Origin: Bacilli bacterium | GTDB lineage: Bacteria; Bacillota_I; Bacilli_A; RF39; UBA660 | Direction: 5' to 3' | DNA length: 64,000 nucleotides | Assembly: GCA_017548925.1 (NCBI GenBank) | Contig: JAFYYX010000001.1 | Span: 94,829 to 158,828, forward strand | Part shown: positions 1,617-23,430 of the stretch, piece after piece | Layout of the letters: the number at the start of each line of letters is the position of its first letter | How positions within the stretch are numbered: position 1 is the first letter of the stretch | The notes under the pieces: generated by a model | Databases searched by the model: none | The model's input: the letters and a program-made list of their open reading frames with translations, nothing else | Told to the model about the DNA's origin: nothing | Program-made: the position numbers and the translations under genes

Positions 1617-2327
1617 ATGATAAAAATTGTAATTATAGAAGATGAAGAAATTTATGTTAAATCAATCAAAAATATTATTGATAAGATTAAATATAAAACA
1701 GATAGAGATATAAAAACTATAGAATTTAACAAATATAATAAAGAACTTGAAAATCTAATAAAGAATAATGATTCAAAAACTATTTATATAATTGATATAG
1801 AATTAAAAAACAGTAAATCAGGAATAGAAATAGCATCAATCATTCGTGATCATGATTGGGAAAGTGAAATAATATTTATTACTAACCACGATAAAATGTT
1901 TGAAACTGTTCATAGAAATGTTTATGAAGTATTTGATTTTATTGAAAAATATCATGAACTAGAGAAAAGATTAACCAAAGATTTAAAAGTAATTATAAAT
2001 AAGAATATTGATAAAAAGATATTTTCTTATAAGGGTAGAAATATTGATTTGCAAATATATATGCATGCAATAAATTATATTTATAGGGATAAAGAGGATA
2101 GAAAAGTGGTTATTGTTACAGATAATTCTTCTTTTTCTGTTAATTTAGGTGTTAAAGAAATACTAGAATTGCTTGATGGAAGATTTAAAAAAGTTCACAG
2201 ATCATGTATTGTTAATACTGATAATGTTTTAACATATGATTGGTCAAAACTAAAAATAATTATGAAGAATGGTGAAGAAGTAAATTACTTATCAAAGAAA
2301 TTTAGAAAAGGAATAACTAATGAATAA
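1617..2327 (+). CDS. agrA: AgrA-type response regulator (REC-LytTR)
   Basis: A 236-residue regulator with an N-terminal receiver domain (acidic cluster IEDEE at 8-12, phospho-acceptor Asp in YIIDIEL near residue 60) and a C-terminal LytTR DNA-binding domain (about 138-235, with the conserved segment FKKVHRSCIVNTDNV). LytTR regulators bind paired direct repeats and usually activate transcription of the signal operon. The gene overlaps the kinase gene downstream by 8 bases. The kinase is AgrC-like and agrB/agrD are adjacent, so an AgrA role is well supported. The order regulator-then-kinase is the reverse of the staphylococcal agr operon. The Shine-Dalgarno sequence is weak (AATGGG). Confidence 0.88.
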   Translation: MIKIVIIEDEEIYVKSIKNIIDKIKYKTDRDIKTIEFNKYNKELENLIKNNDSKTIYIIDIELKNSKSGIEIASIIRDHDWESEIIFITNHDKMFETVHRNVYEVFDFIEKYHELEKRLTKDLKVIINKNIDKKIFSYKGRNIDLQIYMHAINYIYRDKEDRKVVIVTDNSSFSVNLGVKEILELLDGRFKKVHRSCIVNTDNVLTYDWSKLKIIMKNGEEVNYLSKKFRKGITNE

Positions 2328-3576
2328 TATCTTATTCTATTTCTTTGCAATTGTTTCGTATTATTTATTAGTATTAGTTTTTAAAAAGATTAGTAGATCT
2401 AATTTTAAATTAAACTTTATAAACATAGCCTTAATTATTATTTTTAGTATTATAAATTCATTATCATTTATGGATAATCTATTAATAATTAAAACTATTA
2501 TATCAATAGGAATTTTTATACTTATTAACAAAATCATTTTAAAACTATCTATTAAAGAGTCTTTAGTAGTATCGATAATATATCTAATTATTACATTATT
2601 TGGTGAACTTATAGTATTATTAATGCTTAGTCCATTTAATATTATAAACGATGATTATATTAATAGTATTAGCACATTAAAAGCAGTTATAACAGTTGTA
2701 GTTATGCTATTTACTTACCTAATTATATCAATTAAAGTGGTTAATAATGCTATTTACAAGATGTATAGATTTTTTGTTGAAAATAATAAATATATAAAAT
2801 ATATTGTATTTGCAATTATTCAAATAACATTTATTTGTTTACTTTATATCATAAATTACTCAAAGAAAAATCTATTCTTTATGAACTTACTTTTTTATAT
2901 TGCTTTTATAGCAGTAATATTATTAATAGGAAAAACAATTTATAAAAATAAGAAGTTAAACTTAATAAACGAATTATTACTTAATAATGAAGAATCTTAT
3001 GTGAAAGTTATAGAATCATATCAGATGTTTAAACATAATGTAATACATGAATTTAATTGTATTAAATCAATTGGAAATAGTAAGGTTAATAAAATAATTG
3101 ACGGATATATAAAAGAACATAAAACACCAGTAATTGATCAAAAGATAATGTTTTCAATACCAAAAAGCATAAGGACTATACTTTATAATAATATTGTAAA
3201 AAATGCTTTATATAGTTTAAATATAAGCGTAGATAATTTTGCTTCAAATGATATTATCTATATAATATCAACTACTCGTTACATAAAACTATGTCAGATT
3301 CTTGGAATCATACTTGATAATGCAGTTGAAGCTTGTAAGGAATGTAAAAAACCATATTTATACTTATATTTGAACGAAGATAAGAGTAAATATTATATTA
3401 AAGTAGTAAATGAGTTTTCTAATAACATACACTTATTAGATGAAAATAAAATAAATAAATCTAGTAAAAAAGGACATATGGGTGTAGGTCTAAAATATGT
3501 ATATAATTCAAGTTTTGATGTTAAATCAACAATTAGAAATAACAAATTTATCACATCCATAGTAATTAAAAAATAA
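2320..3576 (+). CDS. agrC: AgrC-type sensor histidine kinase
   Basis: A 418-residue protein with six or seven hydrophobic segments in the first ~215 residues and a C-terminal kinase core. The phospho-acceptor region is FKHNVIHEFN, the N-box is LGIILDNAVEACKE (asparagine and glutamate present), and the G-box is GHMGVGLKYV. This is the HPK10/AgrC architecture, a polytopic receptor for a cyclic peptide pheromone that phosphorylates the cognate LytTR regulator. It starts inside agrA (8-base overlap), which implies translational coupling, and ends at a terminator shared with the convergent agrD gene. It is 418 residues long, close to the roughly 430 usual for AgrC. Confidence 0.88.
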   Translation: MNNILFYFFAIVSYYLLVLVFKKISRSNFKLNFINIALIIIFSIINSLSFMDNLLIIKTIISIGIFILINKIILKLSIKESLVVSIIYLIITLFGELIVLLMLSPFNIINDDYINSISTLKAVITVVVMLFTYLIISIKVVNNAIYKMYRFFVENNKYIKYIVFAIIQITFICLLYIINYSKKNLFFMNLLFYIAFIAVILLIGKTIYKNKKLNLINELLLNNEESYVKVIESYQMFKHNVIHEFNCIKSIGNSKVNKIIDGYIKEHKTPVIDQKIMFSIPKSIRTILYNNIVKNALYSLNISVDNFASNDIIYIISTTRYIKLCQILGIILDNAVEACKECKKPYLYLYLNEDKSKYYIKVVNEFSNNIHLLDENKINKSSKKGHMGVGLKYVYNSSFDVKSTIRNNKFITSIVIKK

Positions 3577-3607
3577 AAAAAGATTGTTAAAAAACAATCA
3601 TTTTTTT
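3575..3607. terminator. Bidirectional terminator between agrC and agrD
   Basis: Stem GATTGTT / AACAATC with an AAAA loop, flanked on the left by an A-tract and on the right by TTTTTTT. It can therefore end transcription from both convergent units, agrA-agrC on plus and agrB-agrD on minus. Confidence 0.85.
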
Positions 3608-3609
3608 AA

Positions 3610-3723
3610 TTATTTGATTAATTCTTTAGGGCATTTAATATCATCAAGCCATAGAATTAATGTATATTTGTTATCGGTGCCTGAGAATATATTAGCGATA
3701 GATGCAAATACGTTAGAGAACAT
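3610..3723 (-). CDS. agrD: AgrD-like cyclic-peptide pheromone precursor (37 aa)
   Basis: A short gene read on the minus strand 26 bases after agrB, with a strong ribosome-binding site (AAAGGAG, 8 bases before ATG). The product has the three AgrD parts: an amphipathic N-terminal helix (MFSNVFASIANIFSG), a hydrophobic core (NKYTLILWL) and a charged C-terminal recognition tail (DDIKCPKELIK). The tail aligns with the DEVEVPKEL tail of Staphylococcus aureus AgrD. The core contains no cysteine. Thr21, one residue before the usual ring-cysteine position, is the nearest nucleophile; the only Cys (31) lies inside the tail. A lactone ring or an unusual ring size is therefore predicted, as an inference. 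Context (agrB, agrC, agrA) makes the AgrD assignment strong despite the small size. Confidence 0.82.
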   Translation of the reverse strand: MFSNVFASIANIFSGTDNKYTLILWLDDIKCPKELIK

Positions 3724-3749
3724 TATATCACTCCTTTCATTAGATATTT

Positions 3750-4346
3750 TTAGCAATTATAGTACTTATAATTGTTAAATTTATTTTTGGTTATAAAATA
3801 TATAAAAGGATTAATAAGTATACTTTGTAACACTAATGAAAAACATATAACGTTTCTTATTAAATTATTTTTAGTATAAATAAATATAATTAAATAAATA
3901 ATTGAAACCATTATTGATTTAATCTTTAACTTAATTCTTTTTTGTTTATTAACTAGTGGTAAGTTTTGATTATCAGCTGGAGCATATAATAATAAAGAAA
4001 TAATTGAAATAATAATTAAGGAATATTGAATTGGAATATTCATATTTGCATATTTAATATATAAACCAATAAATACATAAATAAATATTGAAAATAACCA
4101 ACATTCAATATTTGATTTTGCATGAAGACCATAAGCAAATGTCCTAATTGGAGCAAAAAATATAAATAGTAATATAGTTTGCTTAAAAATATTTAATAAG
4201 TATGATAAAAGTAAAATAACAATAGTTTTTGAAAGGAAATGGTACATTACTTCAAGACCGTACTTTATCTTTATTTTTTCTATTTTATTTAATTTTTTGT
4301 GTTTATTTATATAGGTATAGCATTTATCAATAAAAAACTTCTTCAT
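3750..4346 (-). CDS. agrB: AgrB-type membrane endopeptidase
   Basis: A 198-residue membrane protein with about five hydrophobic segments. It carries the AgrB active-site pattern R-x-x-A-x-G-x-H-A-x5-C (RTFAYGLHAKSNIEC), with His75 and Cys82 at the usual spacing. AgrB cleaves the C-terminal tail of AgrD and forms the cyclic thiolactone or lactone intermediate in the membrane. It is the first gene of a minus-strand agrB-agrD operon. Upstream, between 4391 and 4472, are several TTGTTRAT/TTTAAACA-like repeats and a perfect palindrome ATGTTTAAACAT (4418-4429) that could be regulator sites. Confidence 0.9.
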   Translation of the reverse strand: MKKFFIDKCYTYINKHKKLNKIEKIKIKYGLEVMYHFLSKTIVILLLSYLLNIFKQTILLFIFFAPIRTFAYGLHAKSNIECWLFSIFIYVFIGLYIKYANMNIPIQYSLIIISIISLLLYAPADNQNLPLVNKQKRIKLKIKSIMVSIIYLIIFIYTKNNLIRNVICFSLVLQSILINPFIYFITKNKFNNYKYYNC

Positions 4347-8209: not shown

Positions 8210-9523
8210 ATGTCAGAGATTAGAATTATGAAAAGGGGAAAGGTGTATCAGTATCGATTTGAAATTGCTTCAAGAGGAGGTGTAAGAAGATATATTAATA
8301 AGAGTGGATTTGAATCGAGAAAAGAAGCTCAAGAAGCAGGAGCAATTGCTTATAATGAATATTTTAAGACTGGAAGAAAACAAAAGATAAAAGATATGTC
8401 TTATGAAGACTATTTAGACTATTGGATGACTAACTATTGCTACTTTAATGTTAAATATGCAACTATAGCCTCATACTTAAACATAATAAAGAACCATTTG
8501 AAACCAGAATTAGGAATGTATAAGCTAACTCAACTAGATTCTTATACAATACAAAACTATATTAATAAACTATTTAAAGAGAAACATTATTCAAAACATT
8601 ATTTAAAAGGAATACTAAAACTAATAAAAGGATCACTTAAATATGCATGTTATACAGTTAATTTTATAAATGATAATCCAGCTGAAAGAGTACATATTCC
8701 AAAATATGACGTTGTTACAGGAGATCCAGCACATATTTTTACTCAAGAAGAGTTTGAAATTATTCTAGAACGATTTAAAGATGTACCATATCTATATTAT
8801 TCATTCTTAACTGCTTATTATACAGGACTTAGAGTATCAGAATGTTATGCATTAACATGGGATAATATAGACTTTGAAAGAAAGACTCTAACAGTTAATA
8901 AAAACATTATAAAGAAGAATCAAAACCAATTACCAAAAAAGTATGTAATAACAAAAGGACATTCAGTAGAAGAATGGTATTATGGAACATGTAAAAATCC
9001 TCAATCAAATAGAACTATTGCAATAGGAGATACTTTAGTTAAAGCCTTAAAAGAGTATAAAAAAGAACAAGAAGAGTATATAAAATTTTATGGTGATGCC
9101 TATTTAAAACACTATGAAAAAGAAGTTATTAATCCACATACAGAAAGAAAAGAAATAAAAATAGTTAATGCACCTGCAGAACTAGAACTAAATTTACCAG
9201 AAGCAAAGTTAATGTTTGTTAAACCTAATGGACAATATCGAGGTACCGAAACTGTAAGACATGCTTTTAAAGTAATAAACTATGAATTAAAAATACCATG
9301 TAGATTCCATGACTTTAGAGATACACATGCAACAAGGTTGATAGAACAAGGTGCAGATATTAAAGCTGTTTCTAAAAGATTAGGACATTCTTCTATCATG
9401 ACTACATACAACATCTATGTCAGAGTTACTGATAAAATGGAGACTGATACAGTTGATAGATTTGAAGATTACACCAACACTTTAGATATACCAGATACAC
9501 AAGAAATACCTTTTAAGGACTAA
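8210..9523 (+). CDS. int: Tyrosine recombinase / integrase, copy 1
   Basis: A 437-residue phage/Tn916-type integrase. It has an N-terminal arm-binding domain (about 1-55, VYQYRFEIASRGGVRRYINKS), a SAM-like core-binding domain (about 60-160) and a C-terminal catalytic domain. Catalytic features are Arg in TGLRVSECYALTW, the H-x-x-R box HDFRDTHATR, the second His in LGHSS, and a Tyr in YNIYVRV. All key residues are present, so it is probably active. It lies 222 bases from attL and is the best candidate for recombining at secA. Strong similarity to the integrase at 11174-12457 shows they are paralogues. AGAAAGGACAGGG precedes the ATG. Confidence 0.93.
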   Translation: MSEIRIMKRGKVYQYRFEIASRGGVRRYINKSGFESRKEAQEAGAIAYNEYFKTGRKQKIKDMSYEDYLDYWMTNYCYFNVKYATIASYLNIIKNHLKPELGMYKLTQLDSYTIQNYINKLFKEKHYSKHYLKGILKLIKGSLKYACYTVNFINDNPAERVHIPKYDVVTGDPAHIFTQEEFEIILERFKDVPYLYYSFLTAYYTGLRVSECYALTWDNIDFERKTLTVNKNIIKKNQNQLPKKYVITKGHSVEEWYYGTCKNPQSNRTIAIGDTLVKALKEYKKEQEEYIKFYGDAYLKHYEKEVINPHTERKEIKIVNAPAELELNLPEAKLMFVKPNGQYRGTETVRHAFKVINYELKIPCRFHDFRDTHATRLIEQGADIKAVSKRLGHSSIMTTYNIYVRVTDKMETDTVDRFEDYTNTLDIPDTQEIPFKD

Positions 9524-10948: not shown

Positions 10949-11181
10949 TGGAAGAAAGATTAATATATACAGTTCAGGAAGTTGCTAGTATTCTTCATTC
11001 TAGCCCAAATTATATTTATGAATTAATTAGGAAAGGTTATTTACCAGCTATTAAACTAGGAAGCTTAAAAGTTTTAAAAACCACATTAGAAAGATTCTTG
11101 ATTCAAAATGAAGGAAAAGATTTATCTGATCTTAATAATATTAGAAAAGTAGTTATTCAAGTAGAGGTAGGAAATGAGTAG
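10948..11181 (+). CDS. xis: Excisionase-like helix-turn-helix protein
   Basis: A 77-residue protein with a MerR-like HTH_17 domain: YTVQEVASILHSSPNYIYEL followed by IRKGYLPAIKLGSLKVLKTT. This is the usual form of excisionases and small DNA-binding factors next to tyrosine integrases. It overlaps the preceding gene by one base and the following integrase by 8, so all three are translated as a coupled unit. Its likely role is to bias recombination towards excision by bending DNA near the ends, inferred from family and position. Confidence 0.8.
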   Translation: MEERLIYTVQEVASILHSSPNYIYELIRKGYLPAIKLGSLKVLKTTLERFLIQNEGKDLSDLNNIRKVVIQVEVGNE

Positions 11182-12457
11182 TATAAGAATAACAAAAAGA
11201 AAAGATGTTTACCAATATAGATTTGAAATAGCAAGTGAAAATGGAAAAAGAAAATATATTAATAAAAGTGGATTTAAAACTAAAGCTGAAGCTTTAGAAG
11301 CTGGAACTATTGCATTCAATGAATATATAAATGCAGGAAAACCATTCAAAGAATGTAAGATGTCATATAGTGATTATTTAGATTATTGGATAGATAATTA
11401 TTGTAAAAAAAATTTAAAATACAATACCATACAAACCTATTCAACATTAGCAAAGAAATATATTAAACCATATATAGGACACTATAGAATGTGCAATATA
11501 ACTAGTTTAACCTTAAATTCATTTATTACTGATTTGGTTAATAGATATGATTTTTCAAGAGATTATTTTAGAAATATGTTAAAGATTATTAAAGGATCAT
11601 TTAGAGATGCATGTAATCTATATGGATTTATTAAATATAATCCAGCTTTAACAATTAGAATGCCTAAAATGGATATTGAGAAAAAAGAAGATAAACATCT
11701 ATATACAAAAGAAGAAATAGATTTGATTCTAAACAGATTCAAAGATGATTCTACATTTATATGTGCTTTTTTAACAGCTTGTTTTACTGGAATGAGAACA
11801 GGAGAACTATTTGCTCTAACATGGGAAGATATTGATTTAGAAAATGGAATAATCAATATCAAACATAGTGTTTATGATAAACCAAAAGACAAAGATGGAA
11901 GATGGTATATTGGTACAACAAAGACACTATCAGGGCAAAGAACTATATACATAGGAGATACTTTAAAAACAGCTCTAACCAATTACAAAGAAAGACAAGA
12001 AGAATTAAAAAAACTATTTAGTAAAGATTATAAATATTACCATATTGAAGAAGTAAAAAATGAATATGGTAAAGTAATAGAGAATAGAATAGTTTTAAAC
12101 AAAAACTGTGGAGAAAATATTTTAAATCTAGTATTCGTTCGTGATAATGGAACATATTCAGGAACAGATTTACTAAGATATCCTTTTAAAGTTATTCATG
12201 AAGAACTTGGAATCAAAAAATGTAGATTCTATGATTTAAGAGGTTCATATGCAACTAAAGTTTTAAACAGCGGAACAGAGATAAAAGAAGTAGCTGATCT
12301 ACTAGGACATAGAAATGTTGAAACAACTGAGAACTATTACATTAGAAGTATAGAAGATAATAAGAGATTAGCAGTTAATGAATTTGATAGTAAAAATACA
12401 ACTGATGTTATAAAAAGTGTAATAGAATTTCAAATTAAAGAAGGTGAAGCGGTATGA
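11174..12457 (+). CDS. Tyrosine recombinase, copy 2, with altered H-x-x-R box
   Basis: A 427-residue paralogue of the integrase at 8210-9523 with the same domain order. The first catalytic Arg (TGMRTGELFALTW), the late His (LGHRN) and a Tyr (ENYYIRS) are present. The H-x-x-R box reads YDLRGSYATK, so the usual histidine is tyrosine. This substitution is uncommon and could lower activity or alter specificity. The gene lies between xis and the relaxase with overlaps of 8 and 4 bases. It may be the true partner of xis, a second-target recombinase, or a relic from another element. Confidence 0.9.
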   Translation: MSSIRITKRKDVYQYRFEIASENGKRKYINKSGFKTKAEALEAGTIAFNEYINAGKPFKECKMSYSDYLDYWIDNYCKKNLKYNTIQTYSTLAKKYIKPYIGHYRMCNITSLTLNSFITDLVNRYDFSRDYFRNMLKIIKGSFRDACNLYGFIKYNPALTIRMPKMDIEKKEDKHLYTKEEIDLILNRFKDDSTFICAFLTACFTGMRTGELFALTWEDIDLENGIINIKHSVYDKPKDKDGRWYIGTTKTLSGQRTIYIGDTLKTALTNYKERQEELKKLFSKDYKYYHIEEVKNEYGKVIENRIVLNKNCGENILNLVFVRDNGTYSGTDLLRYPFKVIHEELGIKKCRFYDLRGSYATKVLNSGTEIKEVADLLGHRNVETTENYYIRSIEDNKRLAVNEFDSKNTTDVIKSVIEFQIKEGEAV

Positions 12458-14766: not shown

Positions 14767-15987
14767 GTGGATCAAAATAAAAGTGGCAAATTTATAGCCA
14801 AGCTAAGAAAAGAAAAAAATATGACTCAAGAACAGCTTGCCGAGAAAATGGGTGTTAGTATAAATGCTGTTAGTAAATGGGAAAGAGGATTAAGTTTTCC
14901 AGATGTTTCACTATATAAAAAATTATGTAAAGAATTAGGTATTAATATTGAGGAGTTAATTAATGGAGAAAAAGATAATAGTGATGAGGCTAAAGAAAAA
15001 GCTATAATATCTACTATAAATGAAACAAATAAAATTAAGAAGAATTCAAAGAAGTTATTAATTATTCTTTCTATGATTTTTGTTATCATAATATGTGGAT
15101 TGATTTATTATAATAAAAACTTAAAAGTAAACTTAGTTAATGATTCAGATTATTTATATGATGAAGTAATAGATTTTATTAAAGAAAGACAGTTTAAAGA
15201 AAATCCTGATTCAAGTTACAAAGATTTTAATATTTTTTATAGTTATCATGGATTTGGAATAGAAAAGAAAAACAATTATAAATATGCATATATGTGGATA
15301 TATGAGCAAAGTTATTATATTGAACCTGAGGAATATGGAGGAGCTCTAGCAATTTCTTCTAGTAGTTCTATACCAGTAAAAGCCATTTTTAAAGATAACA
15401 AGCTGCAGGATGTTATATATCCCAAAGATGGAAACCAATATACTTCTTCTATAAAAGAAATGTTTCCAGGTATAATAGCATATCAAGTTTTGAATTTTGA
15501 TAAAGAAAAAAATATCAATAAGTTATTTAATGATGTCGAGCAAAAGAAAAACATTTATTATGATTATTTGAATTTGGATATGAGTAAAATAACAATAGAT
15601 GATTTAGCATATAATGATGTTATATTTATTATAGAAAAGAATAATAATAAATGTGATATTCCTGTATCTTTAGCAATTTATAAAAATAATAAATATAAAT
15701 TATTTACAGAATACAAAGCTTGTAGACCAGGAGTGGCATGTACAATGATGTTAGAATATACAAAATCAATAGAGGGAACATATGATTATGATATTATCGA
15801 AATAATAAGACACAGTGTTGATGCTAATTTATTTCAATATACTAATGATAATAAACCAGAATATTCAATTATGTCAGGCAAAAATCATAGTTTCATAACT
15901 GATTCAGATAACAAATATTTAAAAGAATTATTAGAATCTATAAATGTAGATTTGAATCAATGTGCAAAACCAAATTATGGAGATTAA
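14767..15987 (+). CDS. Membrane-anchored XRE-type regulator
   Basis: A 406-residue protein with a Cro/C1-type helix-turn-helix at about 8-62 (MTQEQLAEKMGVSINAVSKW followed by ERGLSFPDVSLYKKL). A Lys-rich linker leads to one transmembrane segment (about 97-115) and an extracytoplasmic domain of ~290 residues that I do not recognise. Start is GTG 14767 after GAGGAAGTGAG. The DNA-binding domain would be cytoplasmic and tethered, with a possible sensor outside, like other one-component membrane regulators. Its neighbours are the lipoprotein and the NERD gene, each on its own promoter. The target is unknown. Confidence 0.82.
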   Translation: MDQNKSGKFIAKLRKEKNMTQEQLAEKMGVSINAVSKWERGLSFPDVSLYKKLCKELGINIEELINGEKDNSDEAKEKAIISTINETNKIKKNSKKLLIILSMIFVIIICGLIYYNKNLKVNLVNDSDYLYDEVIDFIKERQFKENPDSSYKDFNIFYSYHGFGIEKKNNYKYAYMWIYEQSYYIEPEEYGGALAISSSSSIPVKAIFKDNKLQDVIYPKDGNQYTSSIKEMFPGIIAYQVLNFDKEKNINKLFNDVEQKKNIYYDYLNLDMSKITIDDLAYNDVIFIIEKNNNKCDIPVSLAIYKNNKYKLFTEYKACRPGVACTMMLEYTKSIEGTYDYDIIEIIRHSVDANLFQYTNDNKPEYSIMSGKNHSFITDSDNKYLKELLESINVDLNQCAKPNYGD

Positions 15988-20830: not shown

Positions 20831-20850
20831 CAGTATAGGAGTTGATTACT

Positions 20851-22005
20851 ATGTCTAAATTTGAAACAAGTATAGCATGCATTGAATGCGGCAATAAATT
20901 GTTTGAAAAATTATTTCCAATGTTTTTAGAGTACAAGAATAATTTTTCTAGTCTTTCATATTTTGAAAAGGAAACATATAATACAATTCTTGGATCACAG
21001 TATGCATTAATATGTGAATACTATTTAAAAGGATTATTTATATCAAATATGGAAGTAATCATACCTGATGAGTTAAAAAGTAAAATAAATGCATTAACAG
21101 AAGAACAGGAATTAATGATTATTTTATCAGATGAGAATAAAATTAGACAAGACGAACTTTTAAGTAAATTAGATAAAAAAGAACTAAGAGTTTTATTAAA
21201 TAATAATTCATTAAAAAGTTTTGGTCATAGTTTAGTTGCTCTTTTAGGAACAGAAACTTTAGGCGATAATAAGAGAATAATAATTCCGAATCATATTAGA
21301 AAACGTATTATTTGGGAAATGTATGACAGATTATATAACCCAGAAAATGAAACTGATGAGGAAAAGCGTAAATTTCAAGAATATATACATACTCCTATAA
21401 GCAAAAAACTTGTAAACGGAGATATACTAAGAATAGGTAATCAAATATTGGAAGAATTTTTATCACTTTCCTCCACAAATGATGCTTTTCCAAAGGGAAG
21501 ATATGGAATTTTTAATAATTTTATATCAAATGTTGATTTCCTATCAGGCTTAGCATTTTCAATAAGACATCAATTTAAATATCAATATACAAATTTAATT
21601 GAACTTTATGTTAGTAAAAATGACAAATTTGGGAAATTCATTTATCCTGATAAAGATTCAAAAATAATATTTAAAAGTAAAAATAATCAACAAATTGTAT
21701 ATGATATGGTTCCTATAATTTTATATGCTATGTTTGGAATGGAAATTACTTGGAATGCAGCAAAACCTACCCTAACGCCTGATGAGATGGAATACTTAAA
21801 AACATTAAAAAAATATGATGATAATGCTAGAATAACAACTAATAAAATATACTTAGATGAATTAGAAGATGTTAATACAGTAGAATACACTCAAAATTGT
21901 AAAACTAAACAAATTGTTTTAAAAGAAGGAAGACTATACGAAGTGTCACCAACTCTATCAAATATTAAGACAGATAGTTTCAATGTGTCACTACATTATA
22001 AATAA
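20851..22005 (+). CDS. Protein of unknown function (384 aa)
   Basis: A soluble protein, mostly helical, with no membrane segment. The N-terminal half has Cys residues (ACIECGNKLFEKL) that could bind metal, but there is no second pair. The middle (FPKGRYGIFNNFISNVDFLS) and the C-terminal part match nothing I know. Start at ATG 20851 after TAGGAG. The gene is enclosed by two identical terminator-promoter modules, which makes it look like an independent cassette. Confidence 0.78.
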   Translation: MSKFETSIACIECGNKLFEKLFPMFLEYKNNFSSLSYFEKETYNTILGSQYALICEYYLKGLFISNMEVIIPDELKSKINALTEEQELMIILSDENKIRQDELLSKLDKKELRVLLNNNSLKSFGHSLVALLGTETLGDNKRIIIPNHIRKRIIWEMYDRLYNPENETDEEKRKFQEYIHTPISKKLVNGDILRIGNQILEEFLSLSSTNDAFPKGRYGIFNNFISNVDFLSGLAFSIRHQFKYQYTNLIELYVSKNDKFGKFIYPDKDSKIIFKSKNNQQIVYDMVPIILYAMFGMEITWNAAKPTLTPDEMEYLKTLKKYDDNARITTNKIYLDELEDVNTVEYTQNCKTKQIVLKEGRLYEVSPTLSNIKTDSFNVSLHYK

Positions 22006-22060: not shown

Positions 22061-22077
22061 TATTGTTAGGTGATATT

Positions 22078-23430
22078 ATGGATAAGTTTTTAGAATTAAG
22101 AAATAAATATCCAGAATTTATATATGATAGCTATACATATTTTTTTAATGAAAATGAATTTATAGCTGAGTTTAAATTTATTATTCCAGGATTACAAGAA
22201 TTTAATCCATCAATTAAAATAGATAAAAAATATATTAAAAATAATAATATAAATGACAACTTTTTAAGTTATCTTGTATTTAATATCGGACTTGTAGAAA
22301 TGGTTAGTTTCTATAAAGTTGTCTGTAGTCCAAAGATTATTGTTAATGCGGGATATGTTAATCAAGATCAAATTAATTGGTTTAAAAAATTAATATATAA
22401 TGGCTTAGGAGAATTTTTATACAAAAATAACATAAATATTTCTACAGATGATTTATTGAATATAACATGCACTAAAGAGGAAAGTACTATTGATTATCCA
22501 ATTTATAATGGTGTAGGTAATTTAATTGCCGTTGGTGGTGGAAAAGATTCTTGTGTATCTTTAGAAATACTAAAAAATGAAGATAACACATGTTATGTAA
22601 TTAATCCTAAAGATGTACAAATTAATTGCTGCGTTGCTGCTGGATATAATGATGAGAAAGTTATTTTTGTAACTAGAAATTTTGAAAGAGAAAAATTAGT
22701 TGATTTAAATAATAAAGGATTTTTAAATGGGCACATCCCAATTTCAGCAGTAATAGCATTTATATCATATTTATGTGCCTATTTATCAAATAGAAAGAAT
22801 ATTATTTTATCTAACGAATCAAGTGCAAATCAATCAACTGTAATTGGTAGTAATATTAATCACCAATATTCTAAAACCATAGAATTTGAAAATGATTTTA
22901 GATACTATATAAATAATTATTTTAAAACAGGTATTAATTATTTTAGTTTACTAAGAGGATTAAGTGAATATCAAATAGCGTGTATATTCTCTAAATATGA
23001 TAAATATTTTAGTATCTTTAAAAGTTGCAATTTAGGAAGTAAAGAAAGTAATTGGAATTGGTGCTGTAATTGTCCTAAGTGTTTATTTGTTTATATGATA
23101 TTAAGCCCAAATTTATATAAAGAAAAGTTAGTAAATATATTTGGTCAGGATTTATATGAAAGAGAAGATTTACTTGAAACATTTAAAGAAATAATAGGTG
23201 AAAGTGAAACTAAACCATTTGAATGTGTTGGTACAATTGAGGAAGCAAAATTTGCTGTTAGTACTTTAATTAATAAATTAGATAAAGATAATTTACCTTA
23301 TTTACTTAAATATTATTATGAACACTATGAACTATATTTAAATGAAGACGGTATTTTAACATATAATAATAAAAATAATATTGATGAATATTTTAACAAA
23401 CTTGTAATGGAGGAACTAAAAAATGATTAA
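22078..23430 (+). CDS. murL: MurL-like UDP-MurNAc-L-Ala-L-Glu epimerase
   Basis: A 450-residue protein with a PP-loop-like motif VGGGKDSCVSLEIL (about 148-161) and a Cys cluster WNWCCNCPKCLFVY (about 325-338), features I associate with MurL. MurL, known from Xanthomonas, epimerises the terminal L-Glu of UDP-MurNAc-L-Ala-L-Glu to D-Glu with ATP, replacing glutamate racemase. The gene overlaps by 8 bases a murD-like ligase, the neighbour expected for this pathway. ATG 22078 follows AGGTG. Identification rests on remembered motifs and on this neighbour. A different PP-loop enzyme is the main alternative. Confidence 0.75.
   Translation: MDKFLELRNKYPEFIYDSYTYFFNENEFIAEFKFIIPGLQEFNPSIKIDKKYIKNNNINDNFLSYLVFNIGLVEMVSFYKVVCSPKIIVNAGYVNQDQINWFKKLIYNGLGEFLYKNNINISTDDLLNITCTKEESTIDYPIYNGVGNLIAVGGGKDSCVSLEILKNEDNTCYVINPKDVQINCCVAAGYNDEKVIFVTRNFEREKLVDLNNKGFLNGHIPISAVIAFISYLCAYLSNRKNIILSNESSANQSTVIGSNINHQYSKTIEFENDFRYYINNYFKTGINYFSLLRGLSEYQIACIFSKYDKYFSIFKSCNLGSKESNWNWCCNCPKCLFVYMILSPNLYKEKLVNIFGQDLYEREDLLETFKEIIGESETKPFECVGTIEEAKFAVSTLINKLDKDNLPYLLKYYYEHYELYLNEDGILTYNNKNNIDEYFNKLVMEELKND

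Follow-up and report, generated by a model that had tools for sequence, protein, structure and literature searches.

The agr Locus and Its Surroundings

The window, i.e., the whole stretch of 64,000 nucleotides that was analyzed (G+C = 26%), belongs to a genome of 1.07 Mb assembled in three contigs. On its minus strand, agrB (3750..4346) encodes a membrane peptidase and cyclase of 198 aa, recognized by Pfam PF04647 with E = 1.7e-37, in which the catalytic pair His75/Cys82, together with Arg68 and Gly73, is intact and conserved across 190 AgrBs. No solved structure was matched by the AgrB sequence. The ORF of agrD begins 26 nt downstream of agrB and occupies 3610..3723 on the same strand, encoding a 37-aa autoinducing-peptide (AIP) precursor, MFSNVFASIANIFSGTDNKYTLILWLDDIKCPKELIK. 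The sequence leading into its start codon, AAAGGAGTGATATA-ATG, provides a strong ribosome-binding site (AAAGGAG, 3731..3737, minus strand). The assignment of agrD was based on its sequence and on its position after agrB, which is conserved in relatives. AgrD-like ORFs occur at the equivalent place in the agr loci of relatives, indicating that agrD is a real gene. A second, Cys-bearing AgrD was sought in the genome and none was found, the searches returning this one AgrD-like match and one AgrB. When genome contigs were scanned with AgrB as the query, one distant locus was obtained.

Convergent to agrBD, on the plus strand, are agrC (2320..3576), a sensor histidine kinase of 418 aa with a GHKL ATPase domain (Pfam PF14501, E = 8.3e-13), and agrA (1617..2327), a response regulator of 236 aa with a LytTR DNA-binding domain (Pfam PF00072 and PF04397), for which the NCBIfam AgrA model was also matched with a score below its cut-off. 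This layout, with agrBD and agrCA on opposite strands, was observed in nearly all relatives in which agrC was matched beside agrB. Between the convergent ends of agrC and agrD lies a short stem-loop with A and T runs (3573..3608), for which a folding energy of about -10 kcal/mol was calculated on either strand, and which is probably a two-way terminator. The terminator scan, in which G-C pairs are required, did not report it. Upstream of agrB, nothing convincing emerged when promoters and repeats were sought. An AgrB with catalytic His and Cys, an adjoining short AgrD, a nearby AgrC-type GHKL kinase and an AgrA-type LytTR regulator are thus all present and, judged by its gene content and AgrB, the locus qualifies as a complete quorum-sensing system of the agr type. 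Furthermore, the genome encodes two proteins of the CPBP family, to which MroQ belongs, a protein with the role of leader protease (PMC10885120).

Elsewhere in the window, two tyrosine integrases with arm-binding and SAM-like domains (8210-9523 and 11174-12457) are found shortly after secA, with a helix-turn-helix gene nearby (14767-15987); these genes near the agr locus are probably integrated mobile elements. Two consecutive long ORFs of 387 and 455 aa (20842-22005 and 22063-23430) had no Pfam match at E 0.001.

Alignment of AgrD with the Cysteine-Type Precursors of Relatives

The AgrD precursors of relatives share a common plan, consisting of a hydrophobic leader, a Cys, five mostly hydrophobic residues and a tail of the form D/E-E-P-x-(C/M)-P-(K/E). 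Against this plan the AgrD of the window can be divided into three regions on the minus strand. The leader, M1-Y20 (3664..3723), comprises the N-terminal region and a possible exocyclic tail. The predicted ring, T21-L26 (TLILWL, 3646..3663), aligns without gaps to the C-x5-D/E cores of relatives. The C-terminal tail, D27-K37 (DDIKCPKELIK, 3613..3645), carries a motif common to relatives and is presumed to be recognized and cleaved by AgrB. The correspondence is evident when YTLILWL|DDIKCPKELIK of the window is set beside ACVILWL|DEPEMPEHLIK (genome G035) and ACILWHW|DPVECPKEIQ (genome G004, of the same genus). Thr21, encoded by ACA (3661..3663; TGT on the plus strand), falls on the ring Cys of the relatives, six residues before the conserved acidic tail, so that the predicted ring has the normal family size of six residues. 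The AgrD of the window is therefore neither of the Cys-thiolactone nor of the Ser-lactone type, its ring position being occupied by Thr21.

In the preliminary description, a core devoid of Cys and Ser had been reported together with a lone Cys31 in the cleaved tail, and a six-residue ring closed by Thr21 had been proposed. Translation of the minus strand of 3610-3723 confirmed the composition of the core, and the ring size is the one predicted by the family alignment. The location of Cys31 (TGC, 3631-3633) outside the ring likewise held, as the tail motif could be aligned with that of relatives, where the residue before Pro is variable: some have Cys, others Met, Ala or Thr. Cys31 was accordingly rejected as the ring residue. 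A sequencing error was also considered as the source of Thr21 and rejected, since either Cys codon is separated from ACA by changes at all three bases, more than a single error could account for.

Occupancy of the Ring Position across the Family

The surroundings of agrB were collected from the GTDB family of the window, sampled evenly, along with a few AgrDs from outside it. The family comprises small-genome bacteria, which are taken to be uncultured in view of their fragmentary assemblies. Altogether, 193 distinct AgrD reading frames were found beside agrB, from which two truncated ORFs were left out. The script used for anchoring left 12 frames unanchored (the two truncated and ten plain Cys) and mis-anchored two Cys peptides; these twelve Cys were assigned by eye. 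Of the resulting 191 distinct complete AgrDs, 166 carry Cys at the ring position, 17 carry Thr and 8 carry Ser, with no other residue observed, while Ser and Thr together account for 2.4% of the other five ring positions. Subsequently, two genera, g117 and g156, were deliberately oversampled by targeted searches, which brought the set to 234 family AgrDs (L082, L026 and L031, mis-anchored or missed by the script, were corrected by eye) with Cys in 172, Thr in 53, Ser in 9 and, again, nothing else. The restriction to Cys, Thr and Ser in these alignments supports a role as the ring-closing nucleophile, being the pattern expected of such a residue.

Thr at the ring position was found in at least nine genera of the family. 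It is present in 27 of 30 AgrDs of g117 (codons ACT 13, ACA 12 and ACC 2; the other three carry Cys) and in 16 of 18 of g156 (ACT 12, ACA 3 and ACG 1; the other two carry Ser and Cys, one each). Of the remaining five ring positions, three are highly variable in each of these genera; about as conserved as the Thr are a Trp per ring in both genera and the S-T-F before the ring in g156. The mixed codons and varying neighbors indicate that Thr is kept at the amino-acid level and that, where it changes, it changes to another nucleophile. The preliminary description had made conservation of Thr21 among homologous prepeptides a test of the threonine ring. In its literal form this expectation failed, as the two closest homologues, from the same genus, carry Cys; what stood is that every complete homologue examined has Cys, Thr or Ser at this position and that Thr is nearly fixed in other genera.

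The lone Cys or Ser AgrDs within the Thr genera (L298 and L296 in g156; L235, L312 and L326 in g117) are natural nucleophile switches, useful for probing what in AgrB sets the choice of nucleophile. When 296 genomes of the class were searched with a profile built from the Thr and Ser AgrDs, almost all matches fell within the family of the window. Outside the family, where sampling was thin, the small number of AgrDs identified near AgrBs have Cys or apparently Ser, and none has Thr.

Evolutionary History of the Ring Residue and Possible Covariation in AgrB

On a FastTree phylogeny of 190 AgrBs, the distribution of Thr versus other residues corresponds to 10 changes, at least 8 of which are forced by well-supported branches; a 61-row IQ-TREE analysis gave 9 changes, at least 7 of them forced. 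A single Thr clade was rejected on the AgrB tree (AU test, p about 6e-56). Since the root was not inferred, gains and losses are indistinguishable on these trees, and Thr in the window may represent a gain, or the two same-genus Cys relatives may represent reversions within a Thr-rich clade.

Changes in the ring residue are accompanied by changes around it. Ala or Gly usually precedes the ring Cys (142 cores), whereas in 48 of 52 cases the ring Thr follows Phe, Arg or Tyr. In AgrB, a marked contrast falls at two positions close to the active site: Asn65 is present in 122 of 165 Cys systems versus 1 of 25 Thr or Ser systems, and Leu83, which adjoins the catalytic Cys82, in 111 of 165 versus 2 of 25. 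As the phylogenetically independent pairs number only five, this covariation of AgrB positions 65 and 83 with the nucleophile is only a lead. Arg68, Gly73, His75 and Cys82 are present throughout the 25 Thr and Ser systems.

Proposed Ring Closure through Thr21 and Alternative Explanations

From these comparisons, the signal is probably closed through Thr21, with AgrB forming a threonine lactone, which would join the Cys thiolactones and Ser lactones as a third variant. In a published description, AgrB forms a thioester with the core, which is attacked by the Cys nucleophile of AgrD (PMC4979651). AgrB of the window would cut AgrD between Leu26 and Asp27, leaving the core bound to Cys82 through a thioester; attack on this thioester by the hydroxyl of Thr21 would then give TLILWL as a six-residue lactone bearing a short N-terminal tail. 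The leader would be removed by a second protease, possibly one of the two CPBP/MroQ-family proteins, after which the peptide would be sensed by AgrC and AgrA would switch genes.

Staphylococcus intermedius agr makes a functional Ser lactone autoinducer (reviewed in PMC10482373), while the AgrB of Staphylococcus aureus could not process a Ser-containing AgrD (PMC10482373), so that such a nucleophile is not automatically accepted by AgrB. Counting against a threonine lactone are this failure, the Cys carried by the closest same-genus homologues, the chemistry of the residue itself and the lack of a match between the AgrD of the window and the AgrD family models, although its Cys-type relatives of the same genus also fall short of the cut-off. 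Next to Cys, Thr is the weaker nucleophile, and its hydroxyl is a hindered secondary alcohol. The agr signals known so far are closed by Cys or, in rare cases, by Ser, and no Thr-closed AIP appeared in the open-access literature searched.

A core without Cys could also be explained if AgrB cleaves AgrD and the signal is linear, or if AgrB merely hydrolyzes the thioester, with Thr21 outside any ring; linear peptide signals are generally known from other Gram-positive systems. This explanation is unlikely, however, as it would leave the ring position of the 191 homologues limited to Cys, Thr or Ser, although Ser and Thr are rare elsewhere in the ring; moreover, in S. aureus AgrC is not activated by linear peptides (PMC10482373). 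Equally improbable is a ring through Lys19 (as a lactam), Tyr20, Cys31 or the N-terminus exposed once the leader is removed (head-to-tail), perhaps reached by rearrangement of a lactone. Lys19 and Tyr20 are indeed adjacent to Thr21, and a rearrangement of Listeria AIPs to homodetic cyclopeptides is described in PMC11297923. Yet the position before Thr varies (F, Y, R, E or A) and Lys is not conserved among the Thr types, while Cys31 lies past the point where cleavage is expected, and many relatives have Met, Ala, Thr or another residue in its place. That the system is decaying, having lost its Cys and with it a working signal, can be considered very improbable: the genome is small and A+T-rich and same-genus relatives retain Cys, but all four agr genes (agrA, agrB, agrC and agrD) are intact, the ribosome-binding site is strong and the catalytic residues are kept, and in other genera Thr persists from species to species while its codons differ synonymously.

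Closure through Thr21, viewed across the family, has a broader counterpart, which is itself likely: threonine-lactone AIPs would be a third established agr chemistry and the norm in whole genera of one large uncultured family, with repeated switching among Cys, Thr and Ser in natural lineages and matching changes around the active site of AgrB.

Comparison with Known Systems

The system shares with S. aureus agr (AgrBDCA, with Cys thiolactone AIPs) the His/Cys peptidase pair of AgrB, the leader-core-tail plan of AgrD with its acidic tail and P-K-E-L motif, and the AgrC/AgrA pair. The two differ in the ring residue (Thr instead of Cys), in the predicted ring size (six versus five residues) and in organization, agrBD and agrCA being convergent on opposite strands in the window and forming one operon in S. 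aureus. The ring of the S. intermedius AIP also has five residues. In Enterococcus faecalis, the Fsr system undergoes AgrB-like processing to a lactone signal, GBAP, as proposed for the window; unlike the latter, it uses Ser, a larger ring and the FsrB/FsrD organization. The resemblance to S. intermedius agr lies in an oxygen nucleophile in place of the ring Cys (PMC10482373), although that nucleophile is Ser and the organism belongs to a different bacterial family. A likeness in layout is seen with Cys-type AgrDs of the same GTDB family (e.g., genomes G002, G004 and G035), which share locus order, core length and homologous AgrB, AgrC and AgrA, and differ in the ring Cys and its preceding residue.

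If true, a threonine lactone would be a third ring chemistry and would imply that a hindered alcohol can serve as nucleophile for a suitably tuned AgrB. The family provides natural series of systems that differ in the nucleophile but are otherwise preserved, making the nucleophile choice of AgrB directly testable.

AgrD Family Models and Unusual Precursors

The AgrD of the window was matched by neither the Pfam nor the NCBIfam AgrD models and was thus absent from the matches to TIGR04223 (AgrD family cyclic lactone autoinducer peptide), for which the curated cut-off is 19 bits. The same-genus Cys-type AgrDs also fall below this cut-off, and three Thr-type AgrDs of other genera exceed it with 29.8, 22.8 and 21.3 bits. 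The miss therefore reflects the divergence of the genus more than the presence of Thr. Searches that require a core Cys miss such peptides and, for the genus of the window, so does the curated AgrD model.

Two further kinds of unusual precursor were observed among the relatives. In L009 and L041 (genus g21) and L212 (genus g107), the Thr or Ser at the ring position is directly followed by Cys (T-C or S-C), and judging from these motifs the ring may contain six or five residues. Two tandem AgrD copies are present in each of the loci L195 (genome G080, contig C60) and L188 (genome G372, contig C12). In L188 the cores of the two copies differ, being CWIWYM and CVIIFL, suggesting that two signals may be produced by one agrB.
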